From Olleya sp. Bg11-27 (GTDB taxonomy: Bacteria > Bacteroidota > Bacteroidia > Flavobacteriales > Flavobacteriaceae), in contig NZ_CP025117.1 of assembly GCF_002831645.1 (NCBI RefSeq), positions 3,921,001 through 3,985,000 of the forward strand: a DNA stretch of 64,000 bases, in the 5' to 3' direction. A program made the position numbers and the translations under genes. This document shows, piece by piece, positions 14,354 to 44,698 of the stretch; the stretch's first letter is position 1, and the number at the start of each line of letters is the position of its first letter. The notes beneath the pieces were generated by a model. That model was not told the origin of the DNA. It saw only the letters and a program-made list of their open reading frames with translations, and ran no database searches.

Positions 14354-14446
14354 GCCTGCGTTAGCGGTTGTAGTGGCATCCTTTTTTTGCTGCCATATAT
14401 GGCAAAAAAAGATATAATGGAAGACGCGACCCTTGTGGTAACGCCC
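14354..14446 (-). repeat. Dispersed flavobacterial intergenic repeat, copy A
   Basis: Read on the minus strand it begins GGGCGTTACC and ends CTAACGCAGGC, with an internal ATATCTTTTTTTGCC...GGCAGCAAAAAAAGGATGCCACT. The ends GCGTTA/TAACGC are inverted repeats, and a central hairpin GCCATATATGGC caps the T-run/A-run arm. It lies between tpiA and prmA and is transcribed with them. It aligns block by block with the copies at 42754 and 44591. Confidence 0.7.
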
Positions 14447-14471
14447 AAAGTATTTTGATTTTTTTTAGTAT

Positions 14472-15221
14472 TTAAAAGGCGTTTACGATGGCGTAAAAAT
14501 CTTCAGCTTTTAAGGCTGCTCCACCAATTAATCCACCATCCACGTCTGGTTTAGAGAAAATTTCTTTGGCATTTGCTGGTTTTACACTCCCTCCGTAAAG
14601 GATGCTCATGTCTTCTGCTACTTGACTACCGTATTTGTTGTTTAATGTTTTACGGATAAATTTATGCATGTCTTGTGCTTGTTCTGGACTTGCTGTTTCG
14701 CCAGTTCCTATTGCCCATACAGGCTCATAAGCCAATACGATATTTTTGAATGCCGAAGCCTCTAAATGAAACAATGCGTTTTTGATTTGCCCTTCCACTA
14801 CTGCTTCATGGTTTGCTGCTTTACGGTCTGCTAGCTCTTCTCCAAAACAGAAAATGACACGTAAGTCTTTTGATAAGGCTTGGTCTACTTTTTTAGCTAA
14901 AATAGCATCGTCTTCGTTAAAATAAGCACGACGTTCTGAATGTCCCAAAATTACAGTTTGAATGCCTACACTTTTAAGCATGTCTGCATTAACCTCTCCG
15001 GTATATGCTCCGTTTTCTGCGAAGTGCATGTTTTGTGCAATGACCTCTATATCGTCCTCGCGAGTTGCTTCATAAGCATGCCATAAGTTAGTATATGTTG
15101 GTGCAATCATAACCTCTGCATTAGATGTTTTTGTTTGCTTTTTTAAATCTGAAATTAAGGCTTCTGATTGTGGTAAATCATTATTCATTTTCCAGTTTCC
15201 GGCTACTATGTTTTTTCTCAT
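14472..15221 (-). CDS. tpiA: Triosephosphate isomerase
   Basis: 249 residues, full length. The start MRKNIVAGNWKMN has the catalytic Lys11; ILGHSERR carries the catalytic His, AYEPVWAIGTG the catalytic Glu, and ILYGGSVKPAN the phosphate-gripping loop. It interconverts dihydroxyacetone phosphate and glyceraldehyde 3-phosphate in glycolysis. It starts 11 bases after the stop of the upstream permease gene, so the two are probably co-transcribed, and prmA follows after the repeat element. Confidence 0.97.
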   Translation of the reverse strand: MRKNIVAGNWKMNNDLPQSEALISDLKKQTKTSNAEVMIAPTYTNLWHAYEATREDDIEVIAQNMHFAENGAYTGEVNADMLKSVGIQTVILGHSERRAYFNEDDAILAKKVDQALSKDLRVIFCFGEELADRKAANHEAVVEGQIKNALFHLEASAFKNIVLAYEPVWAIGTGETASPEQAQDMHKFIRKTLNNKYGSQVAEDMSILYGGSVKPANAKEIFSKPDVDGGLIGGAALKAEDFYAIVNAF

Positions 15222-15232
15222 GACGTTGTGTT

Positions 15233-16309
15233 TTATTCTAATTTAACTTTTGGATCTAACCAAGTGTATATAATATCTACAAAAATATTAATTATAATGA
15301 ATAGTAAGGCGATAATTAACACGGAACCCATAATTACAGGTAAATCTAAGGTGTTAAGTGCGTTTACGATTTCTTTTCCTAATCCGTTCCATCCAAAAAT
15401 ATACTCCACAAACACTGCTCCTGCTAGCATACTTGCAAACCAACCTGAGATTGCAGTCACTACTGGATTTAGTGCGTTTTTAATGGCGTGTTTTTTTATA
15501 ATCTGAAACTCTGATAAGCCTTTTGCTCTGGCTGTTCTGATATAATCTTGATTAAAGACTTCTAATAAGGAGTTACGCATTAATTGTATAACTACTGCTA
15601 ATGGTCTAATCCCTAAAACGATTGCTGGCAAGATTAAATTTTTCCATTTAATGTGCATTTTTTCGCCAAAGTCATCTAACTCGTAAAGGCTTCCTGTCAT
15701 TTCTAGATTGGTGTATTTATGTAATACAAAACCAAATAACCATGCAAATAATATGGCACTAAAAAAGGATGGTACGCTCATCCCTAAAGTACTTAATATC
15801 TGAATAATTTTATCTAAAAATGTGTCTTTTTTCAATGCTGAAAGTACACCTAATATAACGCCTAAAAAGATTGCGATTAGTATTGCCGATACTGCTAACA
15901 CAAACGTATTGGGTAAAGTCTCTGATAATACTTGGCTTACTTTTTTACCTTGTTTGGTAAAAGATTCCCGTAAGTACGGAAATTTTATAACTGTAGTTGT
16001 GTTACCTATTGCAAACAGTTGTGTTGCTGAATATTTATTTTGACTTAAATAGGTATAGTCGCCTTCTGTTTTAGAATGAAATGAGAGTGGTGACAAATCG
16101 TTTAAATAATAAAAATACTGCGTTGCCACCGGCTTATCAAAACCATACTTTTTTTTAATAATGGCTAATTGCTGACTATCCTCGTTTTGACCCAACATCA
16201 TTTGTGCTGGATCTCCTGGAAGGACACTAAATAAAAGGAATATAACAGTTACCACACCAAATAAGGTGAGTAATGCATACAGGCTTTTATTTAGTAAATA
16301 GGTTATCAG
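15233..16309 (-). CDS. DppB-type ABC transporter permease, probable CTG start
   Basis: A binding-protein-dependent permease with about six membrane helices, the PGDPA motif near the start and the EAA-like loop DYIRTARAKGLSEFQII that contacts the ATPase, as in oligopeptide/dipeptide permeases. A GTG at 16255 opens a 340-residue frame, but homology continues upstream in frame: ITYLLNKSLYALLTLFGVVT is the normal first helix of the family. No ATG, GTG or TTG is present there, and the frame is closed by TAA six bases upstream of a CTG at 16309, which aligns with the usual initiator Met. I therefore place the start at this CTG (358 residues). No ATPase or substrate-binding gene is adjacent. Confidence 0.85.
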   Translation of the reverse strand: MITYLLNKSLYALLTLFGVVTVIFLLFSVLPGDPAQMMLGQNEDSQQLAIIKKKYGFDKPVATQYFYYLNDLSPLSFHSKTEGDYTYLSQNKYSATQLFAIGNTTTVIKFPYLRESFTKQGKKVSQVLSETLPNTFVLAVSAILIAIFLGVILGVLSALKKDTFLDKIIQILSTLGMSVPSFFSAILFAWLFGFVLHKYTNLEMTGSLYELDDFGEKMHIKWKNLILPAIVLGIRPLAVVIQLMRNSLLEVFNQDYIRTARAKGLSEFQIIKKHAIKNALNPVVTAISGWFASMLAGAVFVEYIFGWNGLGKEIVNALNTLDLPVIMGSVLIIALLFIIINIFVDIIYTWLDPKVKLE

Positions 16310-16395
16310 ATTGTTTTATTTATTTTGTTTTTAGTTAAAAACAGTGTGCTTCTCGATATAATTAATGATTACCTCACAAATCACTAGCCGTGCCG

Positions 16396-17703
16396 TTATT
16401 CTTTTTTTAGCGTGATTTTAACCACACCCGTAATATTCTTTTCGCTGTCTATGTTTAATGAGTCCAATTGTGTTCTGTCTTTAAACACATCCATTCTCTC
16501 AATAGTTTCGGGATCTAAAGCCTCTGTTTCTGCTTTAGTCACCAAAGTATCATCAATAAAATAAGCTACAACCTCCTCAATTACTTTAGGAGTTGGGCGC
16601 TCAACTTTAGGCAATGCTAATTGGTCCACATCATTCCAATGTAATTTTTGGATAATGGTTCCTTTTTCTAATTTTAAAACTCCTGGATTAGAACGTATAA
16701 TTGTTTTTAAAGCAGTCTCGTCACAGAAATAGTAGTCAAAACCTAGTTTGTATTGAGATTTAATCAACGCTACTTTATCAGGTCCAGATGCTGTTAAACC
16801 AATCACATCATAACCATTTGCAATAGCCAAATCTGAAGCTATTTTAATAGCTTCTAAACCTTTCGCTTCTGATAGTGCAAGATTGTAATTAACGATTAAT
16901 ACAACGTGCGGTCTAGTTAAAATATCTTGTGTAAAATCTTCGCCATCTTTTTCAATTGAAAAATCATGGATTGGTGGCTCATACCCTTCTGATATAGTTT
17001 CAGTAGTTACACCTACATATGTACCTGTAGATTCTGGATAAGATCCGCTTGTCATGTATGCCTTTTCTGTACCGTTCTCATCAAATATCCAAGTGTATTC
17101 TATTACCGGTTGTGGTGCACCTTCTGGAACAATCATTTTATCTGTAATGTTGTTGCCTACTTTAAAAGGCCTAAAGTCTATTGATGGCAAATGCATTAAC
17201 ACGTGGTATGCAAATCCTAAGCAAGCAATAAAGCTTAATAAAGACAGTATGGTTGTTGATAGCTTACCAAAAAATGGTTTGATGTGCTTTATACCAAAGA
17301 AAATAATTAATATCATTACTAATAACGCTACATCTTTCCAAAAGCTTTCCCATGGGTCCATCTTCATGGCATCACCAAAGCATCCACAGTCTTTTACTTT
17401 ATCAAAATAGGCAGAATAAAACGTTAGGAATGTAAAAAAGATAATCATTAATAATAAACTCCAAACCGTAAATTTAGGCTTGTATCCAATTATTAAAAAG
17501 ATACCTAAAAGCACTTCAAAAACGACTACTATTATTGAAATCCCTAAAGCATAAGGAATAAAAAATGGTAAATCTAAAACGGTTGGACCAAAATACTCCT
17601 CTAATTTAAAAGCAAATCCAATAGGATCATTAAGCTTTATAAATCCCGAAATAATAAAAAATATACCAACAAATATTCTTAAAAAACCGACTATGTATTT
17701 CAT
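16396..17703 (-). CDS. BT_3928-like DoxX/MauE-type membrane protein
   Basis: 435 residues. The first 160 residues form four membrane helices of the DoxX/MauE type (FIISGFIKLNDPIGFAFK and a CGCFGDAMK motif between helices 3 and 4). A soluble part follows whose centre, HVVLIVNYNL...DVIGLTASG, has the look of a thioredoxin-like fold without a CxxC pair. This layout matches the BT_3928 family of Bacteroidota. MauE/DoxX relatives work in thiol redox or respiratory assembly; the specific role here is unknown. It lies downstream of the DUF1599 gene and upstream of the permease. Confidence 0.85.
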   Translation of the reverse strand: MKYIVGFLRIFVGIFFIISGFIKLNDPIGFAFKLEEYFGPTVLDLPFFIPYALGISIIVVVFEVLLGIFLIIGYKPKFTVWSLLLMIIFFTFLTFYSAYFDKVKDCGCFGDAMKMDPWESFWKDVALLVMILIIFFGIKHIKPFFGKLSTTILSLLSFIACLGFAYHVLMHLPSIDFRPFKVGNNITDKMIVPEGAPQPVIEYTWIFDENGTEKAYMTSGSYPESTGTYVGVTTETISEGYEPPIHDFSIEKDGEDFTQDILTRPHVVLIVNYNLALSEAKGLEAIKIASDLAIANGYDVIGLTASGPDKVALIKSQYKLGFDYYFCDETALKTIIRSNPGVLKLEKGTIIQKLHWNDVDQLALPKVERPTPKVIEEVVAYFIDDTLVTKAETEALDPETIERMDVFKDRTQLDSLNIDSEKNITGVVKITLKKE

Positions 17704-17737
17704 AACTTTAATTAAATATCAAATTGCAAAAGCAATT

Positions 17738-18277
17738 TTATTGTTCTGTTAAATGTATCATTGCGAAAATGGCGTAATTAATCATATCTTGATAATTAGC
17801 ATCAATCCCTTCGCTTACAATTGTTTTTCCTGAATTGTCTTCAATTTGCTTAACACGTAATAATTTTTGTAAAATTAAATCCGTTAAACTACTTACACGC
17901 ATATCTCTCCAAGCCTCACCGTAATCATGGTTTTTGTCTTGCATTAACTGCTTTGTTGCTTTAACCTGTGCATCGTATAAAACCGTAGCTTCTTCAACTT
18001 CCAAATCAGGTTGCTCTACCACTCCTTTTTCTAACTGGATTAAAGCCATAATGCAATAGTTGATAATCCCGATAAATTCGCTTTGCTCGCCTTCGTCAAC
18101 TTTACGCACATCATTTTGTTGCAGACCTCTAATACGTTGCGCTTTTATAAAAATCTGATCTGTTAAAGAAGGTAAACGTAAAATGCGCCAAGCACTTCCG
18201 TAATCCGTCATTTTATTAATAAAAAGGTCGCGACAGGTTTTTATAACAGCATCGTATTGTTTTGAAGTATCTTGCAT
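17738..18277 (-). CDS. DUF1599 protein with two repeats
   Basis: 179 residues made of two copies of an approximately 80-residue helical unit: DLFINKMTDYGSAWRILRLPS with SEFIGIINYCIMALIQLE, and KQLMQDKNHDYGEAWRDMRVSS with YQDMINYAIFAMIHLTE. The KxxDYGxAWR motif in each copy defines DUF1599, a family restricted mainly to Bacteroidota. The all-alpha pattern with conserved acidic residues could suggest a nucleotide-pyrophosphohydrolase-like fold, but that is speculation. It diverges from folP. Confidence 0.88.
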   Translation of the reverse strand: MQDTSKQYDAVIKTCRDLFINKMTDYGSAWRILRLPSLTDQIFIKAQRIRGLQQNDVRKVDEGEQSEFIGIINYCIMALIQLEKGVVEQPDLEVEEATVLYDAQVKATKQLMQDKNHDYGEAWRDMRVSSLTDLILQKLLRVKQIEDNSGKTIVSEGIDANYQDMINYAIFAMIHLTEQ

Positions 18278-18392
18278 ATTTGATAAACTCTAATTGAATT
18301 TTGCGTAAATTTCGCATAAAATTATTTAAAGTTCAAGGTTTAGGGTTTAAAGTTTTACTAACGTTATCCCAACACCATATATAAGTGTACAA

Positions 18393-19217
18393 ATGACAAT
18401 AAATTGTAAAGGCAAACTTATAGATTTAAGTACTCCAAAAGTAATGGGTATTTTAAATGTTACACCCGATTCTTTTTTTGATGGCGGACGTTATAAAGAC
18501 GAAACTTCTATTTTGAATCAAGTCGAAACCCTATTAAATCAAGACGCTACTTTTATAGATATTGGTGCTTACAGTTCTCGACCAAATGCGCCGTTTGTGT
18601 CTGAAGACGAAGAATTGCAACGTATTTTACCAATAATCAAACTTCTGGTAGATAAATTTCCAGATATCAATATTTCGGTAGACACGTTTAGAAGTACTAT
18701 TGCGAAAGCAACAGTTGAGGCTGGAGCAGCTTTGATTAATGATATTTCGGCAGGGCATTTAGATAACAACATGCTGCAAACCATCGCTGATTTACATGTC
18801 CCTTATATTATGATGCATATGCGAGGCACACCTCAAACCATGCAAACGATGACGGTTTATGATAATTTAGTCAAAGACATAAACTTTTATTTTTCAGAGC
18901 GTATTGCAACAGCTCGTGCTTTAGGCATTATTGATTTAGTTTTAGATCCTGGTTTTGGTTTTGCTAAAACGTTAGAACAGAATTTTGAATTATTAAACAA
19001 TTTTGAACTTCTAAATATTACCGAATTACCTTTACTAGCTGGTCTATCCAGAAAATCTATGATTTACAAAACGCTAGACACTACAGCAAATGACACCTTA
19101 AACGGGACTACTGCTTTACACATGATTGCTTTGCAAAAAGGCGCTAAAATACTGCGCGTGCATGATGTTAAAGAAGCCCAAGAATGTATCACACTTTACA
19201 ATCAATTACATGCTTAA
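18393..19217 (+). CDS. folP: Dihydropteroate synthase
   Basis: 274 residues. MGILNVTPDSFFDGGRY is the pterin-binding signature 1, DIGAYSSRPNAP the second (with the variant AYSSRP instead of the common GESTRPG), LDPGFGFAKT the third, and GLSRKSMIYK the fourth. It joins hydroxymethyl-dihydropterin diphosphate to p-aminobenzoate in folate synthesis. Its 3' end overlaps the following lipoprotein gene by 8 bases, which suggests translational coupling. Confidence 0.95.
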   Translation: MTINCKGKLIDLSTPKVMGILNVTPDSFFDGGRYKDETSILNQVETLLNQDATFIDIGAYSSRPNAPFVSEDEELQRILPIIKLLVDKFPDINISVDTFRSTIAKATVEAGAALINDISAGHLDNNMLQTIADLHVPYIMMHMRGTPQTMQTMTVYDNLVKDINFYFSERIATARALGIIDLVLDPGFGFAKTLEQNFELLNNFELLNITELPLLAGLSRKSMIYKTLDTTANDTLNGTTALHMIALQKGAKILRVHDVKEAQECITLYNQLHA

Positions 19218-19944
19218 CAGATTATTATTTATCAGTATAGCGCTTTTATTTTTTTCCTGCGGAAATGAAAAAGTACTGCAACTATCAGAAATACAAAATG
19301 CTACAATCACTGAGATTTTAGACGTCTCTCCAGCTTACATTTTTTATGATGAAACCAAGCAAGATAGCGTTGAGTTAAATCGAAAAAACTTAATTATATC
19401 AACCAACTGGTTGGTTAATGTAGATAAGCGTTTAACACTAGAACAAGCGTTACCATCTATAATAAAATTACAGGAGAAGAAACGCAATGCAACCATGCAT
19501 AAAAATGAAAAAGCACGGAATTATTATACTTGTAATGATACTAGTATTAAAAATTTAGGCTTTATTGATTTTACTGATGTTGTTTATTCTTTTGACAAAA
19601 GCAAAGCACCAATAAAAGATAATGCAAAATTGTACAATGAAAAAGTTATAGACAAAACTTCTTCAGATTATCAAACAACTTCTCCTTGGGCTAAAATATC
19701 ACCTGAACATTATTTTGGTGTTGAATTATTTTTGGACAGTAAGGATAAAATTTACGCTTACTCGAAAGACTTATTAAAATCAAATCAATTAGAAGACTAT
19801 CTTTCGAAAATTCACAATAAAGTATTTATAGAGATTAATTTTAATAAAAAAATATCAATACAAGATTATATTTCGTTCAAATCACTTTTAAAAAACATAG
19901 AATCAGAAAACATCATTATTAGTATCAACGAATTCATTTATTAA
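19210..19944 (+). CDS. Predicted lipoprotein of unknown function
   Basis: 244 residues from the ATG at 19210, MLNRLLFISIALLFFSCGN, a lipoprotein signal with the lipobox FFSC. A longer frame from 19126 is inside folP and would hide this signal. The body is polar, with no family I recognise (KRLTLEQALPSIIKLQ, SDYQTTSPWAKISPEHYFGVELFL). It could be a periplasmic or outer-membrane protein. It is sandwiched between folP and cdaA, overlapping folP by 8 bases and ending 35 bases before the cdaA start, so an operon is likely. Confidence 0.75.
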   Translation: MLNRLLFISIALLFFSCGNEKVLQLSEIQNATITEILDVSPAYIFYDETKQDSVELNRKNLIISTNWLVNVDKRLTLEQALPSIIKLQEKKRNATMHKNEKARNYYTCNDTSIKNLGFIDFTDVVYSFDKSKAPIKDNAKLYNEKVIDKTSSDYQTTSPWAKISPEHYFGVELFLDSKDKIYAYSKDLLKSNQLEDYLSKIHNKVFIEINFNKKISIQDYISFKSLLKNIESENIIISINEFIY

Positions 19945-19979
19945 CCCAATTATATTAAATTTACAAAAACCGCTTTCCT

Positions 19980-20765
19980 TTGGATATATTTAAAGACATT
20001 TTAAAATTTAGTTGGATAGACATGATAGATGTAGTGTTAGTTGCACTGCTACTCTACTACGTTTACAAACTAGTTAAAGGGACAGTTGCTATTAATATTT
20101 TTATTGGTATTGTAGTCATTTATTTTATCTACTTAACAGTAGAAGCTTTACAAATGGTATTACTAACCAAGATTTTAGGGGGCTTTATTAGTGTTGGTTT
20201 TATTGCTTTAATTATCGTGTTTCAGCAAGAAGTCAGAAAGTTTTTATTAATGATTGGATCAACCAATTTTGCCAGTAGACGTAAATTTTTAAGTCAGTTA
20301 AAGTTTTTAAAAATAGAAACTGGTACGTTAACAGATATTGATGCTATCATCTCTGCTTGTAATAAAATGAGTAGCACAAAAACTGGTGCATTAATCGTTT
20401 TAGAACGAAATAACAATCTTGATTTTTTAGCGAATACTGGTGATGAAATGAATATAAAAGTCACCCAACCGATCATAGAAAGCATTTTTTTTAAAAACAG
20501 CCCACTACATGATGGTGCCATTATTATACAAGATAACATTGTCAAAGCAACACGTGTTATTTTACCAGTAAACAACGAGAAGACCATTCCGCAACGCTTT
20601 GGTTTACGTCATCGTGCTGCTGTTGGAGTGACTGAGCGTACAGATGCCATTGCCCTTGCTGTAAGTGAAGAAACTGGGCAAATTTCTTGCTTTAGAAATG
20701 GCGAATTCCTGCCGTTTGAAAACACCGTGGAATTAGCGCAGATTTTAAAGAATGATTTAGAATAA
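19980..20765 (+). CDS. cdaA: Diadenylate cyclase CdaA
   Basis: 261 residues with a TTG start (no nearer ATG keeps the first helix). Three membrane helices occupy residues 15-80 (IDVVLVALLLYYVYKLVKGT is the conserved CdaA start), then the DAC domain with the catalytic DGA (NSPLHDGAIIIQ) and RHR (GLRHRAAVGVTE) motifs. It makes c-di-AMP from two ATP at the membrane. It follows folP and a lipoprotein gene on the same strand, an arrangement consistent with co-transcription. Confidence 0.95.
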   Translation: MDIFKDILKFSWIDMIDVVLVALLLYYVYKLVKGTVAINIFIGIVVIYFIYLTVEALQMVLLTKILGGFISVGFIALIIVFQQEVRKFLLMIGSTNFASRRKFLSQLKFLKIETGTLTDIDAIISACNKMSSTKTGALIVLERNNNLDFLANTGDEMNIKVTQPIIESIFFKNSPLHDGAIIIQDNIVKATRVILPVNNEKTIPQRFGLRHRAAVGVTERTDAIALAVSEETGQISCFRNGEFLPFENTVELAQILKNDLE

Positions 20766-20844
20766 GCTTTGCTTTAATTTCTTAAAAAGCTATAAATCAA
20801 CCCACACATACTAACCATTTTATACTAATTGAAAGAGTTTAGCA

Positions 20845-21252: not shown

Positions 21253-21374
21253 TTTGGTCATCTAGATAAAAAAACTAGTCATTTTCTGAAGTAGGCAATT
21301 AAAATCATTAATTAAATACCAACAGCCCGCTCTGCAATTTATAACTTATGAGACGACTATAGTCTTCATATGAA

Positions 21375-23889: not shown

Positions 23890-23917
23890 GAAAACAGTAT
23901 TTTTACATATTAAAAAG

Positions 23918-23925
23918 CAAAGATA
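23918..23925 (-). promoter_or_regulatory. Possible -7 box for truA and the ABC exporter
   Basis: TATCTTTG on the minus strand, 28 bases upstream of the truA start. No TTG is present at the expected -33 distance. Confidence 0.4.
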
Positions 23926-24008
23926 ATATAAAGACAGAAGCTTGAAGTCCGAAGCTTAAAGTTTTAAGAATAGTTTACCTAAAAAACACAGAAAGACCTT
24001 TAACACAA

Positions 24009-24535: not shown

Positions 24536-24561
24536 GCACTAATACTACTAAGATGTTAGGT

Positions 24562-32367: not shown

Positions 32368-32396
32368 AGTTATAGTGATTAGGTCACTATTTTAGT

Positions 32397-35300: not shown

Positions 35301-38300
35301 TGCTTCTTGCGCTAGTGCTGGAACTTCTCCTGGCAAATCAGTATCATTACATAACTCTAATGGTGTGGGCTGTACTAACACTGGTAATGGATTGACTATT
35401 AAATCCATTGGTGTTGTTGTTGAACATCCATTAGCATTATCCGTTATTACAACCCAAATCGTTTGCATATTTACCGTTGTATTAGTAAAGGCATTTGGTG
35501 TCGCTATTGCATTTTGCGGTACTGCCGCATCTGCTGCTGTCGTATAAAAGGTAATTGTATAATCTGCAGTTGCTAAATCGTTAGTCGTATCTGTATCTAA
35601 CTGATTTAGTATTTCTGGATTATTTAACTCTAAATCAAATAACGCAATGCCGTCTGTATCATTATCACAAACCTCCAATGGACTTGGGTCAGTTATTTGA
35701 GGCGTTGGATTGACGATTAGCCTTAAATCTTCATAACTAGCACATGCAGTTGTTATAGTTGCACTTTCAACACGCACATAAACCACCTGAACATCCTCTA
35801 CGATATTATTGTAAGGACTTGTTAATGGGTTAACATTAAGCTGTGCATCACTAACTGTTTCATGATAAGTTACTGATAACCCCGGTACCCCGCCTGTGAT
35901 TTGAGCTTCAGAGTCTGTTAATGTAAAGACACTAAACCCATCACTATCTGGATCACAAACTACTAAATCTGTTGGTGCAAAAGTGATTGGTGCTTGCTCT
36001 ACTTCTAATTGTAAAGTCGTGGTTGTGTAACATGTTGTATTTACATCCTCAACTCTAACAAATACCGTTTGTGGATTACTAATATTGTCATAAGGTATTG
36101 GTAATGCATTCATTGCCATATCTGCATCTAACTGTGTCAAATAATATGTTACAGCATACGCTGGATTACCCCCACTTATTTCATTATTTTTAAGACTTAA
36201 ATCTATTGAGGTTAAGCCATCTGGTGTACCATCATCACAAACTGATAATGGTGAAGCGGTTACCGCTACAGGCTCTGGATAAACTGTAACCGCAATTGTG
36301 GTTGTTGTTGGACAAGATCCATTAGTCGTATAATCAATGTTATATGTAACATTAGAACCTCCTCCCGTAATTAAACCGGAAGCGGCATCTAAAACGGCCA
36401 TATCACCTGCAACAGGAGCCACATTAAATGTAAACACCCCACCTGTTAAACCTGTAATTGTAGCTACTGCTCCATCACATGTTGGTGTATAAGTAAATGA
36501 AGAATCATCTGCAGGAAGTACATTTAATACTTGAGTACTTGATTGTATACATGCTCCAGCGGTTGTATACTCAATAGTATAACTTGCTCCTGGAGTTGCC
36601 GACGTTACTGTACCTGTATTAACATCTATTACTGCCGTGTCTGTTACTGCAGGATTGAATACATAAGTTCCTCCTGGTGTAACAACAGAGTCTACGATAC
36701 CTCCATTACAATCTGGTAGAACAGTAAAAGCTGGATCATCTTGATTTAAAACTGTTACATTTTGGAAACTGTTATCAGAACAAGGACCTGAAGTAGTATA
36801 TTCAACAGTGTACGTTGCTCCTGGAACACCGCTTGTAACCTCCCCTGTTAACGCATCTATAATTGCTCCATCTGTATTTATTGGGTTAAAGACAAAGGTT
36901 CCACCTGCATCGCCAATAATATTCATTGTTGCTCCATCACAATTTTCAATTACAGAAAAAGTAGCATCTTCAACGGGATAAACTGTTACAGACTGTGTAC
37001 TACTATCAGGACAAATTCCCGCAGTCGTGTATTCCACTGTATACGTTGTACCTGGTGTTCCATTAGTTATAGCTCCTGTAACTGAGTCTATTGATTCAGG
37101 ACCTGTTACCGCTGGATTAAAAGCATAAGTTCCTCCAGGAGTAGCGACAGTATCAACAGTTCCCCCATCACAAGAAGGTGCCATAGTAAAGGATGCATCA
37201 TCTGTTGTTAGCACAACTAAAACTTCATCTGTAGATGATGGACAAGTCCCTGTACTAGTGTATTGTATAGTGTAATTAGTTCCAGAGATACCATTAGTTA
37301 CTTCTCCTGTTGTTGTATCTATTGTTGCTCCATCACCTAAATCAGGGTTTAAAGCAAATGTTCCTCCAGGCGTAACAATACCACTTACCGTTCCTCCTGA
37401 ACAATTTGGTGTGACCACAAATGAAGAATCATCAGTAGGGTTTACAATTAATTCAAAAACAGGTAAAGCAGATGCGGTATAACATGCATCATTACCAATA
37501 ACCTGTACTCTTACATAAATTTCTTGCGGATTAACTGTATTTGTATAATCACTAACTAATTCTGTACCGGCAACACCAGCATTAGCTTCGGCAAAACTTA
37601 AATAATACGTGACTACAAAACTTGTCGAAGATTGCGTTCCTAAAATAGCTGCATTTTGACTTTCTAAATCAAAAGCTTCAAAGCCATCATTTGATACATC
37701 ATCACAAGTGACCATATCTGGCGCAGGATTAATTATTGGCTGCGTTGTTATGTTTAAAGTGAACATTTCGGTTTCAAAACAACCCGAATTTAAGTATTCT
37801 ATTCTAACATAAATAGTTTGAGGCACTCCTAAAACAGCAGACGAACTATAACTTGCAGGTGTCGCAATTGCTGAAGTTCCATTAGTTGCATCAGCTTGAG
37901 TTTCATAATAGGTAATATTCAAATCTCCAGGAACGGCTGATGGTGCCGTAATAACGGCATCATTCTCTGTTAAATCAAAAATATACGGTAATGCCCCTGG
38001 ATTACATAAAAACAAATCATTTGGCAACCCATTATCTAATTCTGGTAAAACATCAATACAAACGACCTCTGTATATTCACAACCAAAATCATCTGTAGTT
38101 CTATAAGTATAACAATGTGTACCTGCTGTCGCAGGTTGCACTGTAATATCATTTCCTGTTGTACTAATTATTGACGCATCAGTATCCCATCCTTCAGTTA
38201 CCGTTACGGGAGTAAAAGATAATTCTGGAGGCTGTAAATTTGGATCAAACTCTATACTCCATGAAAAAATGTATCCATTATCAGCACTTAAATTATCAAC

Positions 38301-39590
38301 CACTCGAATGGTCCAATCTCCATTTAAAGGGCTTCCTAATAAAGAACTAAAACTTTCTACTGGTAAGTATGTCCCAGTAGCCCATGAATTACCAGCTGGA
38401 TTTGAACCCGCTGTAACTGTTGGGGCATTCTCTAATAAAACTGCCGCAGACATAGAAAAACAATAATCTTCACCAACACCTGCTACGTTTGATGAGTCGT
38501 CATTAGCGCCTCCAAAGTAAGTCCCTCCTCCTGCTTGATCAAATAACTGAGCTTCCAAACCGGAAGGTCCTGTTATAAAAAGATCTAAATCACCAGAATA
38601 AGAATGCTCCATATTAACACAGACAGAAACAATTTGATTAACATCTGTTAAAGTTAGTGATGATTCATAACAATCGACTGTAATCGATGTTTGATAAGAA
38701 GCCCCACTACCATCAGGTAAAAAAGTTGTTCCACTGACAGGTGGTGTACAGTCATTAATAAATTGTACTGGGTTAACAACCCCATTTAAAGTTGTAGAAT
38801 CTCCAAAACAAATAACACTGTCTACAGCCTCTGTACCAGTAAAATCAGGATTTGTGCCAACTTGGATTACTTGATTGATTAAATTGGTATTTGCACAACC
38901 ATCAGGATCTGTATTAGTATTAGTATCATTCACATTTAAATTGACAATATACACTCCCGGTGTTGTGTACGAAAACGTTGCAGATTGTCCAGAAACAAAA
39001 TTCCCATCTCCTAAATCCCATTCGTAAGATGCTCCCGTTCCATCAACAGAAAAGTTTGCGCTACCATTTAAGGTAATAGGCTCATCAGGACATACTCTTA
39101 TATAACCATCTCCATTTGGTGCTGGTGATGCACTATCTAATTGAGAGACGATTGTTTGACAAGGCTCAAAACAAGAAATATTTGCTGCCCATCCGGCTGC
39201 ATTCGGAGCACCGTCAGAGGTGAATTCAATAGTTAAACATCCCGATAAATTTTCAGATGTTGCTGTAACAAATCCAGGATTAGCACCAGGACCTCCTCCA
39301 CTAAACTGTCCAAACGCTGGAGCAGAAATATCGTCACCATTATAAATAGTCATGACATCAGTATTCAATCCTGTACTGAAGGCTGTAAAATTTAATTGGA
39401 CTAAATTCCCTGGTGTATCAGGACAAATAGTCAAAATAAAACTCTCATTATCAGAATAGTTGGCAGACGCCCCTCCTGAATCGTAAAATACGCCTCCACA
39501 CTGACTAACTGTTGTGCTTTGCATAAGTACATCTTGCGATAAAGCAATAAATGAATTTAATAATATAAGGGCTACTAAAAACTTTTTCAT
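32397..39590 (-). CDS. Giant modular cell-surface protein with T9SS type B (gliding-motility-associated) sorting domain
   Basis: 2397 residues from the ATG giving MKKFLVALILLNSFIALSQ, a signal peptide; an earlier in-frame ATG adds seven residues. In order: a CUB-like domain near 25-145, a PKD domain near 165-255 (SYEWDLGDGNFVSGQ), a proprotein-convertase P-like domain near 310-460 (MEHSYSGDLDLFITGPSG), then about a dozen 90-110-residue modules each ending in a (V/I)YVRV...TGC strand. A block of five 76-residue modules at 36290-37440 sits inside this array. The C-terminus PHFFTPNDDGFNDTWNIYG is the type B T9SS sorting domain. It should be exported and attached to the surface; adhesion or binding of surfaces or polymers is inferred. 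Confidence 0.9.
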   Translation of the reverse strand: MKKFLVALILLNSFIALSQDVLMQSTTVSQCGGVFYDSGGASANYSDNESFILTICPDTPGNLVQLNFTAFSTGLNTDVMTIYNGDDISAPAFGQFSGGGPGANPGFVTATSENLSGCLTIEFTSDGAPNAAGWAANISCFEPCQTIVSQLDSASPAPNGDGYIRVCPDEPITLNGSANFSVDGTGASYEWDLGDGNFVSGQSATFSYTTPGVYIVNLNVNDTNTNTDPDGCANTNLINQVIQVGTNPDFTGTEAVDSVICFGDSTTLNGVVNPVQFINDCTPPVSGTTFLPDGSGASYQTSITVDCYESSLTLTDVNQIVSVCVNMEHSYSGDLDLFITGPSGLEAQLFDQAGGGTYFGGANDDSSNVAGVGEDYCFSMSAAVLLENAPTVTAGSNPAGNSWATGTYLPVESFSSLLGSPLNGDWTIRVVDNLSADNGYIFSWSIEFDPNLQPPELSFTPVTVTEGWDTDASIISTTGNDITVQPATAGTHCYTYRTTDDFGCEYTEVVCIDVLPELDNGLPNDLFLCNPGALPYIFDLTENDAVITAPSAVPGDLNITYYETQADATNGTSAIATPASYSSSAVLGVPQTIYVRIEYLNSGCFETEMFTLNITTQPIINPAPDMVTCDDVSNDGFEAFDLESQNAAILGTQSSTSFVVTYYLSFAEANAGVAGTELVSDYTNTVNPQEIYVRVQVIGNDACYTASALPVFELIVNPTDDSSFVVTPNCSGGTVSGIVTPGGTFALNPDLGDGATIDTTTGEVTNGISGTNYTIQYTSTGTCPSSTDEVLVVLTTDDASFTMAPSCDGGTVDTVATPGGTYAFNPAVTGPESIDSVTGAITNGTPGTTYTVEYTTAGICPDSSTQSVTVYPVEDATFSVIENCDGATMNIIGDAGGTFVFNPINTDGAIIDALTGEVTSGVPGATYTVEYTTSGPCSDNSFQNVTVLNQDDPAFTVLPDCNGGIVDSVVTPGGTYVFNPAVTDTAVIDVNTGTVTSATPGASYTIEYTTAGACIQSSTQVLNVLPADDSSFTYTPTCDGAVATITGLTGGVFTFNVAPVAGDMAVLDAASGLITGGGSNVTYNIDYTTNGSCPTTTTIAVTVYPEPVAVTASPLSVCDDGTPDGLTSIDLSLKNNEISGGNPAYAVTYYLTQLDADMAMNALPIPYDNISNPQTVFVRVEDVNTTCYTTTTLQLEVEQAPITFAPTDLVVCDPDSDGFSVFTLTDSEAQITGGVPGLSVTYHETVSDAQLNVNPLTSPYNNIVEDVQVVYVRVESATITTACASYEDLRLIVNPTPQITDPSPLEVCDNDTDGIALFDLELNNPEILNQLDTDTTNDLATADYTITFYTTAADAAVPQNAIATPNAFTNTTVNMQTIWVVITDNANGCSTTTPMDLIVNPLPVLVQPTPLELCNDTDLPGEVPALAQEAFTLEDANAQILNGQTGITLTYYFTQTGASNGSASDQIFSPYVNTANAQTVYVRAEDNVTGCISTITLNLRVNPIPSPEANPSTLIECDSDNDGFALFDLDSQTISILNGESGVSISYHETEADATSDINPLTSPYTNIVPSNQNVYVRAENDITGCFTIVILPLDVQPSPVVPITIDDYIVCDDNNDGFNQFDFDTVMTPQILGTQNPADFTLTYHTTALNAESGNSPIVNTSNYTNVTNPQTIYIRLVSNTNGCVTTGQFEIIVEFPPVLVQPTPLAICDELDANYYENNDDIATFDLTVKNDEIIAGNVSWIVAYYETQADAQADVNVIADPTQYTNMMVGTNPANPQTVYVRVTNSITGCFSFTTLTIRVLPNPTPLENPDNIELCDDVAVVGPNDLIELFDLTQDAAVILNGEGINPSDPRHLSYYTDLDNALMGTTPIADPTMHSNEDPTNPGVAITPQTIYVRVTNGTDEIGTSGTGCYTIVSFDIIVNPLPEVSPIEDYIYCELFSDGQYGFDLVSKTDEILGTQSATDFTLTFYAADGTTIGNPSNYTNATNPEIISVDITNNLTGCIARTSFTIEVQEGAQANPDMAPIVYELCDDTMETDGDTTNDSTQFDLVTQNPEVLDGQDPANYIVSYYATQADADAALNALPLLYENIINPQVIYVRVDNDTMIDDGSGTGTMVDTSICYETAELTLQVNPLPEVELESSYLLCINTNGTEVVSAPIIETGLNTTDYTFEWLLENITIPGESGNSLEPTQGGNYSVIVTDISSSSVTMCQTVATTIVEESEPPTIAVELLTEAFADVHNIYVTATGSGSSVYEFSIDDGPWEVNVPNDGTYTFTDVGAGDHIVTVRDINGCGEFSLPIPIMDYPHFFTPNDDGFNDTWNIYGIDDQPDAVIYIFDRYGKLLKQLSPTGLGWDGTYNGNPMPTSDYWFTVDYKEPNDPNNAKKQFKAHFTLKR
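36290..37440 (-). repeat. Five tandem 76-residue modules in the giant protein
   Basis: Each module has DD(S/A)SF...C(D/N)GG..... TPGGT(F/Y).FNP ... TG.VT.G.PG..Y.(V/I)(E/Q)YTT.G.CP.S. Spacing is about 230 bp. The copies are clearly related at both protein and DNA level and differ from the flanking YVRV modules. Confidence 0.8.
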
Positions 39591-39636
39591 TGGTTTGTGT
39601 TTATGATACATCGTTGGTGTAAACTAATTTTGCAGA

Positions 39637-40113
39637 TTATTTTGTAATGGTTTGAGACTTGATAATAATAAAATACTCCGTATTATCTATCCTGTAAATA
39701 CTTGACCCAATTCCAAAAAACTGAAGATTATATTTCAAGACATTAAAAGTTGAAGGGTCATAATTTTTATCCATAATTAGATTAGCGTTATAATTATTAA
39801 AAAGCCCTGCATCACTAATAAATTGATACTTGTTTTTATTCTCCACTAAACTTGGCATTTTTTTTATAGACACTCTGTTTCTAAGTAAATGCTTAAAATC
39901 TTTAACACGTTGTGGTTTACTTAAAATATAAGCTTGTAATTTATCTTGATAAACGTCCTGCAACATCCCCATCTCTTTTGCTGTTAATGGCGCATCAACA
40001 TTTTTACTATATTTAACTAATTGTGTTTTTTGTTTCTTTTGGGTTTGTGCTACTCCTTGTTGAGTAAACAACATTAATCCAAATACTAGTGTAAAGAAAA
40101 CTCTAAGTCTCAT
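39637..40113 (-). CDS. Small secreted protein of unknown function
   Basis: 158 residues from the ATG giving MRLRVFFTLVFGLMLFTQQGVAQ, a signal peptide; the longer frame starting at 40212 has no support. The mature part is basic (KKQKTQLVKYSKNVDAPLTA) with no motif I recognise, and ends FFGIGSSIYRIDNTEYFIII. It lies 46 bases upstream of the giant T9SS protein on the same strand, a possible two-gene unit, although a leader separates them. Confidence 0.72.
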   Translation of the reverse strand: MRLRVFFTLVFGLMLFTQQGVAQTQKKQKTQLVKYSKNVDAPLTAKEMGMLQDVYQDKLQAYILSKPQRVKDFKHLLRNRVSIKKMPSLVENKNKYQFISDAGLFNNYNANLIMDKNYDPSTFNVLKYNLQFFGIGSSIYRIDNTEYFIIIKSQTITK

Positions 40114-40264
40114 TGTTTTTAAGATAAAATTAAGTTCGAAAATTAAGGAAATTTTAATTAACATTATGTTAATATAGTGACCTAAATTTAGGTTTTTCCT
40201 ATTCTTATACATATAACAAGTACATTTAACAAAACCCTACCCTCAATCAAATTTATTTATTGTT

Positions 40265-40272
40265 TATCTTTG
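40265..40272 (+). promoter_or_regulatory. Possible -7 box of the folE operon
   Basis: TATCTTTG, 38 bases upstream of the folE start. No TTG lies at the -33 distance. Confidence 0.4.
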
Positions 40273-40310
40273 CAAACTATTTTAAACACCATTTTACAGA
40301 CTTTATTTAA

Positions 40311-40988
40311 ATGAAGATTGAAAACAATATAGACGACAACGATGCTATTGGCGAAAACCATATTGGCACAAATCACGATACTCCATTAAGAGCGGATGCT
40401 TTTGACTTATCAGATGCTGATAAAATTGAGAGTATAAAAAAAGACGTCACTAAAATATTAGAGACTTTAGGTTTAGATTTAACTGACGATAGCTTAAAAG
40501 GGACACCTAACCGTGTTGCAAAAATGTTTGTTAACGAGATTTTTGGAGGATTACACCCAGATAAAAAACCGAAAGCTTCGACTTTTGATAACAAATATCA
40601 ATACGGAGAAATGTTAGTAGAAAAAAACATAACCGTTTATTCTACTTGCGAGCATCATTTACTTCCTATAGTAGGACGTGCACATGTTGCTTATATTTCT
40701 AACGGCACTGTAGTTGGGTTGTCTAAAATGAATCGTATTGTAGATTATTATGCAAAACGTCCTCAAGTACAAGAGCGATTAACCATACAAATTGTTAAAG
40801 AACTACAAGAAGCTTTAGGTACGGATGATGTTGCTTGTGTCATAGATGCAAAACACTTATGTGTAAACTCTAGAGGAATTAGAGATATTGAAAGCAGCAC
40901 AGTAACTTCAGAATTTGGAGGACAATTTAAAAAGAAATCTACTAGACGCGAATTCTTAGAATATATCAAACTGGAGACAAAATTTTAG
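40311..40988 (+). CDS. folE: GTP cyclohydrolase I
   Basis: 225 residues. STCEHHLLPIVGRAHVAYI carries the zinc-binding Cys and the catalytic His pair, LSKMNRIVDYYAKRPQVQERL is the conserved substrate-binding helix, and KHLCVNSRGI holds the second zinc Cys. It converts GTP to dihydroneopterin triphosphate, the first step of folate (and queuosine precursor) synthesis. The start of cysS follows after nine bases, a probable operon. Confidence 0.97.
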   Translation: MKIENNIDDNDAIGENHIGTNHDTPLRADAFDLSDADKIESIKKDVTKILETLGLDLTDDSLKGTPNRVAKMFVNEIFGGLHPDKKPKASTFDNKYQYGEMLVEKNITVYSTCEHHLLPIVGRAHVAYISNGTVVGLSKMNRIVDYYAKRPQVQERLTIQIVKELQEALGTDDVACVIDAKHLCVNSRGIRDIESSTVTSEFGGQFKKKSTRREFLEYIKLETKF

Positions 40989-40997
40989 TAAACAGCA

Positions 40998-42482
40998 ATG
41001 GAACTTTACAAGCATCAAAACATAAAAATATACAACTCCTTAACAGGAGAAAAAGAGAACTTTAAATCTATTAACGAAGGGTATATTGGCATGTATGTTT
41101 GTGGACCAACCGTTTACAGTAACGTCCATTTAGGAAACGTGAGGACCTTTATGTCCTTTGATGTGATATTCAGGTACCTTAAACATCTGGGATACAAAGT
41201 CCGTTATGTTAGAAATATTACCGATGCGGGACATTTAGAAAATGATGCCGACGAAGGTGAAGACAAAATTACTAAAAAGGCAAGGTTAGAAGAAATCGAA
41301 CCTATGGAAGTTGTACAACGCTACACTGTCGATTTCCATAACATATTAAATACATTCAATTTTTTACCGCCAAGTATAGAGCCTACCGCAACCGGTCATA
41401 TTATCGAGCAGATAGAGCTAATTAAAACCATTATTGATAATGGTTTTGGTTACGAAGTTAATGGTTCTGTCTATTTTGATGTCCATAAATACAACGAAAC
41501 TAACAATTACGGCATTTTAAGTAAACGTAAGTTAGAAGATTTAATACATAACACTAGAGCACTAGACGGGCAATCGGACAAGAAAAATCCACAAGATTTT
41601 GCCCTTTGGAAAAAAGCAGAACCTACGCACATCATGCGTTGGCCCTCACCTTGGAGTGACGGTTTTCCTGGATGGCATTTAGAATGTACTGCCATGAGTA
41701 CTAAATATCTTGGGGATCATTTTGATATCCATGGTGGCGGAATGGACTTAAAATTCCCGCATCACGAGTGCGAAATCGCTCAAAATCAAGCCGCATTAGG
41801 AAAATCTCCAGTAAACTATTGGATGCACGCCAATATGTTAGAACTTAACGGACAACGCATGTCTAAATCTACAGGAAACACTGTAAACCCAGACGAGTTA
41901 TTATCCGGTAATAATGCCTTTTTTAGTAAAGCCTACACACCAAGTGTTATTAGATTTTTTGTAGCACAATCGTCATACCGTAGTATTTTAGACCTTACTG
42001 ATGACGGTCTATTAGCCAGCGAAAAAGGGTATAACCGTTTAATGGAAGGCGTCAGTCAACTAGACCATTTAAAAACTTCTAAAACATCTACAATAAACAT
42101 TGACGCTTGGAAGCAAAAATGTTACGATGCCATGAATGATGATTTTAACACACCAATTGCCATTGCAAACTTATTTGAAGGTGTTAAATATATCAATCAG
42201 ATAAAAGAAGGGTCTGAAACTATATCCGAAAAAGATTTAGAGACTTTTAAAACAACAGTCAATGCTTTTGTTTTTGATATTTTAGGATTAAAAAACGACA
42301 AAGCAGCAGCTGGAGCCGGAACAGATAAATTATCTGGAGCCGTACAATTATTAATAAAACTACGTCAAGAAGCTAGAGTCAATAAAGACTTTGCTTTATC
42401 TGATCAAATCAGAGATGAGCTAGCAGAGGCGGGCATACAACTTAACGATGGTAGAGAAGGCACAACCTTTTCTACGAATTAA
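40998..42482 (+). CDS. cysS: Cysteinyl-tRNA synthetase
   Basis: 494 residues of class [22 protein letters not shown] contains the zinc Cys and the HIGH-equivalent [14 protein letters not shown] the later zinc ligands, and MSKSTGN the KMSKS loop. It charges tRNA-Cys. It follows folE by nine bases. A terminator-like hairpin lies between it and yidD. Confidence 0.97.
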
Positions 42483-42493
42483 ATACATTAACG

Positions 42494-42522
42494 AAGTCCT
42501 TTCTTTACGAGAGGACTTTTTT
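42494..42522 (+). terminator. Terminator-like hairpin just before yidD
   Basis: AAGTCCT (42494-42500) pairs with AGGACTT (42512-42518) around an 11-base loop, and a six-T run ends at 42522. The yidD ATG begins three bases after the run, so termination here would block yidD, or the stem could cover its ribosome binding site. Confidence 0.75.
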
Positions 42523-42525
42523 ATT

Positions 42526-42747
42526 ATGAAAAAAATACTAATCGCTCCCTTTTTATTTTTAATTAAGGTTTATCAAACCCTGATTTCCCCCTTTACACCA
42601 GCAACTTGTAGATATCAACCCACCTGTTCAAGTTACACTAAAGAAGCGTTACAAAAACATGGACTACTTAAAGGATTAAAACTAAGTATCAAACGTATTT
42701 TTAGTTGTCATCCATGGGGCGGTAGCGGTTACGACCCCGTACCGTAA
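42526..42747 (+). CDS. yidD: Membrane protein insertion efficiency factor YidD
   Basis: 73 residues from ATG at 42526, [35 protein letters not shown] has the cysteines and the CRYxPTCSxY pattern that defines YidD, and [14 protein letters not shown] is the family ending. It assists insertion of inner-membrane proteins with YidC. An upstream in-frame start would overlap cysS and pass through the hairpin, so it is not preferred. Confidence 0.95.
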
Positions 42748-42753
42748 TTATTT

Positions 42754-42832
42754 GGGCGTTTTAACAGGCTGTCCGTTATATCTTTTTTAAGAAAAATAAA
42801 AAAGGATGCCACTTCCATCCTTAACGCAAGCG
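42754..42832 (+). repeat. Dispersed flavobacterial intergenic repeat, copy B
   Basis: It begins GGGCGTTTTAACAGGC and ends CTTAACGCAAGC. It contains TTATATCTTTTTT, then AAAAAAGGATGCCACTT and the stem GGATG...CATCC. It starts six bases after the yidD stop, the shortest of the three copies (79 bp). Confidence 0.72.
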
Positions 42833-42934
42833 TACAAGCTTTTAGTCTCTTCATTAATTTATTGCTAAACCTTTGCTAAGTAATTCTGATAAATAAAGCA
42901 TAAATGCTATATTTACAACTCCAAAAAACAAACT

Positions 42935-43864
42935 ATGTACATACTTAAATTCGATTGGAATCCATTAACAGGAATCGATATTATAGGAAATTTTAAAATA
43001 CATTTTTATAGCTTAATGTGGATTGCTGCATTTGTTATAGGACATGCTATAATGAAATATATTTTCAAACGTGAAAAAATAAAGTTAGAATTTTTAGATC
43101 CTCTATTTATATATACTGTCCTTGCAACCATGCTTGGTGCACGTTTAGGACATGTTATATTTTATCAACCTGAATTATTTTCGCAAGACTTTTTTAGCGT
43201 CTTTCTACCATTTAAATTTAACGGTGGTTTCGAATTTCAAGGCTTTCAAGGCTTAGCAAGTCATGGCGCAGCAATAGGTATTATTATAGGTATGTTTTTA
43301 TACCGTAAAAAATACAATTACAAATCATTAATGTGGATTTTAGACCGTATTGTTATACCTGTAGCTTCGGGTGCCATATTTATTAGATTGGGTAATTTTA
43401 TTAATTCTGAAATCATTGGAAAAATTACTGACTCTGACTTTGGTGTTCGCTTTGTACAAAACTTTTATAACAAATATGAGATCGTACAAAAAACGGGAAT
43501 TAAAGACGTTAAAAAAGCCTATGCTTCTATAACTGATAATCCAAACATGGCACCATTACTAGAAGCGGTACCTTTTAGACATCCTGCACAATTATACGAA
43601 TCGTTTTGTTACATTTTTGTGTTTTTAATACTATGGTTTATTTATACTAAAACGACCAAAAAAGATCAAACCGGGTTTTTATTCGGATTATTTTTAATCC
43701 TACTTTGGAGTGTTAGATTTTTTGTCGAGTTTGTTAAAGAACCACAAGGTGATGAGTTTATCAATTGGTTTGGACTTAACACAGGACAATGGTTAAGTGT
43801 TCCATTTATTTTAATTGGTCTTTATTTTATGTTTGTCTTTAAACCTAAAACGGCTATCAAATAA
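42935..43864 (+). CDS. lgt: Prolipoprotein diacylglyceryl transferase
   Basis: 309 residues with about seven membrane helices. MLGARLGHVIFY, FQGLASHGAAIGI, AIFIRLGNFINSEIIG and FRHPAQLYES are the conserved Lgt segments; RLGNFINSE holds the signature Arg and Asn. It adds diacylglycerol to the Cys of prolipoproteins at the inner membrane. The stop overlaps the start of the DUF192 lipoprotein by one base, so they are translated together. Confidence 0.96.
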   Translation: MYILKFDWNPLTGIDIIGNFKIHFYSLMWIAAFVIGHAIMKYIFKREKIKLEFLDPLFIYTVLATMLGARLGHVIFYQPELFSQDFFSVFLPFKFNGGFEFQGFQGLASHGAAIGIIIGMFLYRKKYNYKSLMWILDRIVIPVASGAIFIRLGNFINSEIIGKITDSDFGVRFVQNFYNKYEIVQKTGIKDVKKAYASITDNPNMAPLLEAVPFRHPAQLYESFCYIFVFLILWFIYTKTTKKDQTGFLFGLFLILLWSVRFFVEFVKEPQGDEFINWFGLNTGQWLSVPFILIGLYFMFVFKPKTAIK

Positions 43865-44367
43865 TGAAACACTATTTTAAATTTACCACCCTTCTTTTAT
43901 TATGTACTTTAACACTTGGTTTTACATCTTGTAAGGAAGATAAGCCTGTTGCACCTGTAAAAATTGACTTTAAGAAAGAAGGAGAATTAACGCTTTTTAA
44001 AGGCGCTACAGACACTATTGCTAAGGTCTTTAATATTGAGGTTGCTAAGACTGATTACGAGATACAAACGGGATTAATGTATCGTGACAGTATGAAAGAT
44101 AATCAAGGGATGTTGTTTGTTTTCCCTGATGTAAAGCAACGCTCATTTTACATGAAAAATACACGTATCCCTTTGGACCTTATCTTTTTTGATCACAACA
44201 AACGTATTGTTAGTTTTCAAGAAAACGCAAAACCAATGGATGAAAGTGGTTTACCCTCAAATACACCAGCGCAATTTGTTTTAGAGCTTAATGCAGGAAT
44301 GGCACAAAAGCTATTACTTGATGTAGGAGACAAAATGGACTATTTTGAATACCTCTTAGAAAAATAA
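43864..44367 (+). CDS. DUF192-family lipoprotein
   Basis: 167 residues, with a lipobox near TSCKEDK (Cys at about residue 23) after a hydrophobic signal. The DUF192 domain follows: NIEVAKTDYEIQTGLMYRDSM, FYMKNTRIPLDLIFFD and LELNAGMAQKLLLDVGD. Function unknown; small beta-barrel-like proteins of this family are usually secreted. It overlaps lgt by one base. Confidence 0.9.
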   Translation: MKHYFKFTTLLLLCTLTLGFTSCKEDKPVAPVKIDFKKEGELTLFKGATDTIAKVFNIEVAKTDYEIQTGLMYRDSMKDNQGMLFVFPDVKQRSFYMKNTRIPLDLIFFDHNKRIVSFQENAKPMDESGLPSNTPAQFVLELNAGMAQKLLLDVGDKMDYFEYLLEK

Positions 44368-44388
44368 AATTCTTATTTAGATTATATA

Positions 44389-44428
44389 AAAAGCCTAATT
44401 GTTACTATTACAATTAGGCTTTTTTTTT
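44389..44428. terminator. Intrinsic terminator of the lgt-DUF192 operon
   Basis: AAGCCTAATTG pairs with CAATTAGGCTT around a nine-base loop, followed by a T-run. Confidence 0.93.
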
Positions 44429-44539
44429 GTGTCCTTAAATTTGCTTTACCATACCCTTTATTAGATTGAATATCCACTAAACAAGATCACAGTACTATAA
44501 AACAATAACACTTTTAGTATTTGAGGTTATAATTAACAG

Positions 44540-44566
44540 ACTAAACGCTAAGGCCTTTCGTTTAGT
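44540..44566. repeat. Perfect inverted repeat hairpin
   Basis: ACTAAACG (44540-44547) and CGTTTAGT (44559-44566) are perfect complements around an 11-base loop containing AAGGCCTT, itself a palindrome. No T-run follows. Confidence 0.6.
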
Positions 44567-44590
44567 AAAAGTTTTATATTACCTCTGAGT

Positions 44591-44698
44591 TTGCGTTAAG
44601 GATTGATGTGGAAATCCTTTTTGTGAGCTACGAGCAAAAAGATTGTAACGGAAAGCCTGACGCACTTTTGCCAATAAAAACAAAAGTGAGTAACGCCC
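44591..44698 (-). repeat. Dispersed flavobacterial intergenic repeat, copy C
   Basis: On the minus strand it begins GGGCGTTACT and ends CTTAACGCAA. It has an extra perfect hairpin CACTTTTG...CAAAAGTG (absent from A and B), then GTCAGGCTTTCCGTTACAATC, then ATCTTTTTGC...CAAAAAGGATTTCCACAT and the stem GGATT...AATCC. It is the longest of the three copies (108 bp). It lies downstream of secDF in the transcription direction. Confidence 0.7.

Follow-up and report, generated by a model that had tools for sequence, protein, structure and literature searches.

Flavo-1 copies in an Olleya genome appear old and individually kept folded in place, and may act at gene boundaries

Three short elements in a 64,000-nucleotide stretch of the Olleya sp. 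Bg11-27 genome (contig NZ_CP025117.1, positions 3,921,001 to 3,985,000; hereafter the window) are, near certainly, copies of the structured family Flavo-1 (Rfam RF01705). The family is already known. Comparison with related genomes suggests that within Olleya old copies have been inherited at fixed sites, each held in its fold by selection, and that the elements may act in cis as gene-boundary (3′-end) elements; taken as a whole this reading is tentative, and we place it somewhat short of an even chance. The elements are listed below by their positions in the window. Gene calls around elements, here and throughout, are crude open reading frame (ORF) calls, and gene names were assigned by eye from translations.

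E1, 14358 to 14446, minus strand: a GGGCGTT...AACGC element lying 3′ of tpiA, with prmA next; Rfam places Flavo-1 on the plus strand.
E2, 42754 to 42827, plus strand: element starting 7 bases past a yidD-like gene's stop codon, with lgt next; Rfam places Flavo-1 on the minus strand.
E3, 44593 to 44698, minus strand: element between convergent DUF192-like and secDF-like genes; Rfam places Flavo-1 on the plus strand.

A cmscan search against Rfam 15 matched Flavo-1 at 14349–14435 (plus strand, 51.0 bits, E = 4.3e-8) for E1, at 42758–42830 (minus strand, 55.1 bits, E = 3.3e-9) for E2 and at 44590–44666 (plus strand, 53.9 bits, E = 6.7e-9) for E3. All three scores exceed the curated cut-off of 42 bits, and the Rfam strand is opposite to the orientation chosen in a preliminary description of this DNA. 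That description had taken the elements for diverged copies of one structured family, possibly a conserved RNA, and both proposals agree with the Rfam matches and with the filing of Flavo-1 in that database. The sequences and shared blocks that it gave are as described, and the outer GGGCGTT...AACGC ends are present, but its limits overshoot the AACGC side by 2–5 bases. The elements are intergenic provided that translation of prmA begins with the ATG at 14325; a TTG-started ORF, the longest on that strand (13486–14448), enters E1. A chance likeness between AT-rich sequences is not what the data show, given cmscan E-values of 3.3e-9 to 4.3e-8 and pairing far above permuted and slid controls. 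Folding energy alone was insufficient to reveal the elements (z-scores of −0.8 to −3.0 for the six single strands).

The genome of Olleya sp. Bg11-27 (4.31 Mb, one contig) contains 36 Flavo-1 matches at E ≤ 1, of which 28 lie over the cut-off and 34 reach E ≤ 1.2e-4, a loose limit at which 5 of 14 control genomes match too, with 0 of 14 over the cut-off. Recurrence in other flavobacterial genomes had also been anticipated, and was found: among 99 genomes, including this one, a match at E ≤ 1e-3 occurs in 53 and one over the cut-off in 47, against none of the 14 control genomes. The distribution is patchy between genera and species. Spread by phages or plasmids was considered and set aside, the only trace of it being a single 26-base plasmid match; the query, the 116-base E1 sequence alone, returned zero phage records.

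Read from the GGGCGTT end, on what we call the A strand, an element consists of GGGCGTT, a side hairpin (P2), the left arm of a long hairpin (P3) ending in TATATC, and a T-run; a loop, an A-run, the right arm of P3 starting with GGATGCC, and TAACGC follow. The T-run and the A-run form the upper stem of P3, which has fixed mismatches and is closed by a GCGTT/AACGC helix. The real unit thus exceeds the 76-column Rfam model, with the closing helix and P2 lying outside it. The side hairpin of E3, recognized by sequence and fold and absent from the Rfam consensus, is the following.

P2 of E3, 44663 to 44688, minus strand: CACTTTTG...CAAAAGTG.

The fold was examined in a wide sample of 119 elements, parsed among the matches listed (at least 120 loci) from a scan of genome contigs with one pattern, which is not a census. 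The pattern leaves four paired bases free to limit bias in the pairing test. These bases read GC/GC in 57 elements, AC/GT in 27, GT/AC in 13 and AT/AT in 10, and depart from pairing in 12 of the 119. Over six pairs, 94.7% of the cells are Watson-Crick, compared with 54.3% (maximum 59.1%) for permuted right arms and 19–39% for slid ones; the permutation test ignores relatedness, and the near-invariant pair −15/+16 contributes nothing to it. P2 varies in sequence between copies yet remains a hairpin, with a mean energy of −5.2 against −2.1 for shuffled sequences (segments found in 56 of 119 elements). The conserved Flavo-1 hairpin is strongly backed by covariation. A mismatch is retained at −14/+15, where C-T occurs in 104 and T-C in 10 of the 119 elements. 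This non-Watson-Crick pair changes jointly on both sides, which hints that the mismatch itself is read out.

The positions of the copies were compared between Olleya sp. Bg11-27 and its congeners, using all listed copies of genomes G005 and G001. At the same place, 27 of 30 copies have a counterpart in G005 and 25 of 30 in G001. Genomes G009 (17 of 34 copies) and G003 (7 of 29) were compared in part, and absences there carry little meaning. The positions of E1 (in G005 and G001) and E3 (in G005, G001 and G009) are common to congeners, and the sequence of E2 is almost unchanged across G005, G001 and G009. At two further sites, L036 and L037, G005 holds broken Flavo-1 remnants whose left arm contains a different repeat. 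Outside the genus, 10 of about 111 loci coincide with an Olleya site and share its orientation, among them one at an mgtE-like gene in Lacinutrix and one at thiC-thiE in Tenacibaculum. The arms of P3 are 97.6% identical in G005 and 91.4% in G001 (in an alignment that omits 7 ortholog rows lacking a parsed core), while the 30-base flanks are 85–90% and 75–81% identical, respectively. On these comparisons, the Olleya copies look old and inherited in place rather than jumping.

Double changes that preserve Watson-Crick pairing were found at 22 pair positions in 62 ortholog pairs, where 2.2 would be expected under independence, and 3 pairs are broken. The count took in 27 of 30 own cores and 62 of 70 ortholog pairs, and the 22 changes represent 14 distinct site-pairs at 10 sites. 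Direct parsing gave 22 compensatory changes and the alignment 19; three of the 22 belong to L027 of G001, which the alignment read partly as broken. With this excess of compensations over breaks, single copies appear to be kept folded in place, presumably by selection. Gene conversion among the copies or template switching within the hairpin might produce such changes instead of selection, an explanation that we regard as very unlikely. It gains from L017 in G001 and G009, identical to the own copy L021, and from L031 in G001 and G009 and L021 in G005, each 1 base from L014. For L015, L016, L019, L022, L024, L027 and L028, however, the nearest other own copy is 3–8 bases off, and template switching would also erase internal mismatches, whereas the C-T at −14/+15 persists in 104 of 119 elements. 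Gene conversion could account for some compensations (L017, L021, L031), the rest not obviously.

The preliminary description had also entertained a mobile element, either a miniature inverted-repeat transposable element (MITE) or one resembling the repetitive extragenic palindromes (REPs). The data lend this reading no support, and Flavo-1 resembles the two classes only in part. Like REPs and the REPINs built on them with RAYT transposases, Flavo-1 elements are short, dispersed, palindromic and intergenic, often near stop codons, but they have fewer copies, fixed positions and no general RAYT partner. MITEs are likewise short and non-coding with short complementary ends; Flavo-1, by contrast, has yielded no target duplication, empty site or parent transposon at the sites examined. 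Its terminal GCGTT/AACGC ends span 5–7 bases in E1, E2 and E3, and the ends vary with the fold in other genera.

A non-autonomous element that spread earlier and is now mostly stationary would explain why Flavo-1 is dispersed, patchy (53 of 99 genomes) and divided into lineage types, and why the base preceding the element is T-rich. The patchiness between genera and species keeps past mobility conceivable. In the same vein, the guaA terminator is common to ten Chryseobacterium genomes, and Flavo-1 stands behind it in one of the ten, G063 (by eye). The stable positions, the ten non-Olleya loci at Olleya sites and the compensatory changes in place nevertheless make this distinctly unlikely. A search for flanking duplications and empty sites gave neither a clean empty site nor a target duplication at the sites examined. 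At L013 the whole intergenic region differs and there is no clean junction, and no clean empty site was seen at L033, L029, L155, L192 or L194, at three Chryseobacterium sites, or at L036, L037 and L015; at L029 and L155 the relatives carry Flavo-1 or an altered version.

Mobilization by RAYT was dismissed as an account of the family in general. Of the 25 genomes with at least ten Flavo-1 matches, a count that includes genome G006 at only 75% completeness, 14 have RAYT-type genes (NF047646, E ≤ 1e-5) and 11 lack them, and among 20 RAYT-gene sources, which represent 18 distinct loci with mostly 1.5-kb flanks, one contains Flavo-1. Insertion behind intrinsic terminators as a rule was likewise rejected: judged by eye, copies of G063 and G071 seemed to sit behind terminators, yet among 99 wide-sample elements only 5 have a terminator directly 5′ (against 9 among 495 shuffles) and an equal 5 have one 3′. 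Fresh insertion was also dismissed for the near-identical copies of G071, which share a larger repeated block that accounts for their repetition.

The gene context of the copies bears on their possible role. Most Olleya copies lie 3′ of a stop codon in the same direction as the upstream gene; among the 30 copies of Olleya sp. Bg11-27, taken in the A orientation, the upstream neighbour is sense in 24, the downstream neighbour in 23, both in 20 and neither in 3. In the wide sample, orientation could be assigned for 96 of 119 elements (23 were excluded at locus edges, and 8 lie inside ORF calls), giving 49 both-sense, 25 both-antisense and 11 of each mixed type. The median distance from the stop codon of a sense upstream gene to the point 28 bases 5′ of the T-run is 32.5 nt (60 wide-sample elements). 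The own neighbours are mostly core genes, including tpiA, pyruvate kinase, guaA, thiC, yidD, secDF, gpsA and S-adenosylhomocysteine hydrolase. Neighbours of E1 and E2 in the window are as follows.

tpiA-like gene, 14472 to 15221, minus strand: upstream neighbour of E1.
prmA-like gene, 13486 to 14325, minus strand: downstream neighbour of E1, with the start placed at ATG.
lgt-like gene, 42935 to 43864, plus strand: downstream neighbour of E2.

A deoxynucleoside-kinase-like gene in Olleya faces a convergent gene, and at its 3′ end G000 and G004 carry Flavo-1, and G001 and G009 carry a bidirectional intrinsic terminator (by eye), with no Rfam match there at E ≤ 0.1. It is a concrete site at which Flavo-1 and a terminator alternate and can be compared. 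At the 24 own sites whose upstream gene is sense, no other terminator-like hairpin was seen in 17, one lies after the element in 4 and before it in 3. The swap and the few separate terminators at these sites favour a cis-acting boundary role. Flavo-1 resembles bidirectional intrinsic terminators in its A-run and T-run and, at this one site, in its place between convergent genes, but differs from them in that the T-run is paired within the stem. A canonical intrinsic terminator, with a GC-rich stem and then a T-run, is not general: it was found on one strand of E2 and in neither E1 nor E3, and 48 of 119 wide-sample elements have a hairpin of at least 6 pairs before the T-run, on one strand only. 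Two terminator-like features lie in or near the elements of the window.

Terminator-like hairpin with a T-run inside E2, 42802 to 42822, minus (Rfam) strand: could form in place of the long hairpin.
Bidirectional terminator-like hairpin, 44760 to 44795, found on both strands: between the secDF-like gene and E3.

One nucleic-acid strand can fold into P3, P2 and the closing GCGTT/AACGC helix. Our best guess at a mechanism, drawn from sequence comparison, is that the element would act in cis at the gene boundary (3′ end), and that the folded structure would be read by RNA polymerase or a bound factor. Transcription crossing the boundary might then be stopped or shielded, or the mRNA 3′ end set. 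In its fullest form, Flavo-1 would be a new transcription-boundary element, namely a folded, factor-dependent stop or insulator, swappable with bidirectional terminators and kept copy by copy across flavobacteria, and not a small RNA gene; this we consider unlikely.

Several observations weigh against a boundary role. The swap with a terminator is known at one site only, and some copies stand behind a terminator. A separate terminator is weakly rarer at Flavo-1 sites of the wide sample (16 of 59) than at control genes (98 of 245). The wide-sample orientation bias (49:25) is little above that of other adjacent gene pairs at the same loci (332:218), which lean alike, and is therefore modest. No regulon theme shared by the own neighbours was seen by eye. 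The Rfam strand, which the G-U preference described below favours, is antisense to most upstream genes. Finally, the authors of a Flavobacterium psychrophilum transcriptome study report that Flavo-1 matches lie sense or antisense to transcribed regions and that many fall outside them (PMC9723704).

The main alternative is a DNA-level site, where a hairpin formed at gene ends in cruciform or single-stranded DNA would be bound by a chromosomal protein, in loose analogy to the protein-bound REP sites and bacterial interspersed mosaic elements of enterobacteria. A DNA-level role would be compatible with a fold preserved in place through 22 compensations, with copies that stand behind terminators and are probably outside transcripts, and with the many matches beyond transcribed regions in the F. 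psychrophilum map (PMC9723704). A candidate binding protein is not known, however, and no replication-strand bias was found among the own-genome matches (15 vs 21, hand count); we rate a DNA-level site as rather unlikely.

The type label in Rfam implies a family of free small RNA genes, and the question of which strand folds bears on it. In the 119-element sample, departing cells on the A strand are A-C in 15 cases and G-T in 3; a second, partly related set, scored over nine pairs, gave 22 A-C and 7 G-T (134 L/R pairs, including orthologs and at least one false parse). Because A-C on the A strand corresponds to G-U on the Rfam strand, the latter is the likelier folded strand, although a mutational strand bias could yield such counts too. 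A comparison of folding energies between strands was uninformative because the flanks show the same bias. The strong covariation and the G-U preference suit a small RNA, but the published F. psychrophilum map shows no consistent Flavo-1 expression (PMC9723704), and promoter-like and terminator-like signals are not general (promoter motifs judged by eye only). Free small RNA genes are thus highly improbable.

Weinberg et al. (2010) judged Flavo-1 to be probably an RNA and not cis-regulatory (PMC2864571), and a 2022 review lists it without a function (PMC9029176). In the literature searched, where coverage of subscription journals was limited, no function for Flavo-1 was found, a question open since 2010. 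The larger fold, the positional conservation and the in-place compensation were not met in the passages on Flavo-1 available from these sources. The present elements share with the Rfam entry a sequence and fold over the cut-off, occurrence in Bacteroidota and many copies per genome; they differ from it in a longer unit and in evidence that points toward a cis element rather than a small RNA gene. Conservation of single copies near gene ends shifts the question from the targets of a small RNA to the effect of each copy on its neighbours, and stable, individually preserved copies point to a local job at each site.

The larger repeated block of G071 is 278 bases long and has 26 matches in that genome and none in G082, the sole same-family genome compared (L124–L128, L397–L408, L423). 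Several of its copies start with a whole or half Flavo-1. The block ends in a palindromic site with GTTGTT, and a different gene follows in each copy (10 distinct aligned copies of 18 inspected), including those for a UvrD-like helicase, an nSTAND-like NTPase and a DUF4365 protein. One partial match lies 20 bases past a fragment resembling the C-terminus of an integron integrase (86 bits, under the family cut-off, with a model that also matches 13 of 14 controls). From its sequence, the block appears to be a cassette system of the integron type, carrying defence-like cargo.

Other repeats and transposase genes occur near Flavo-1 sites or in the same genomes; one further cross-genome search scored two candidates per genome and is far from complete. 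A REP-like repeat, CCTGAGCGCAGTCGAAGG, lies at about the same left-arm point of Flavo-1 at several sites (L001; L250–L252), namely own C1:118121, the L036 site in G003 and G005, and the L037 site in G005. At L247 (own C1:642500–643350) a palindromic repeat, GTCATTACGAAGG...CGCAATGAC, stands where G005, G004 and G009 carry Flavo-1. A single 500-residue ORF at L044:376–1878 (own C1:837163–837522) joins a RAYT-like Y1 transposase domain in frame with HemF, coproporphyrinogen oxidase; the RAYT matches of G005 and G045 lie within open frames of 507 and 511 residues and are perhaps the same HemF fusion. The other own Y1 transposase gene (L043) is degraded to a 140-residue ORF with HVY at the HxH motif, and around it lie other repeats, which have the form GCCACTAGTT...AACTAGCGG.

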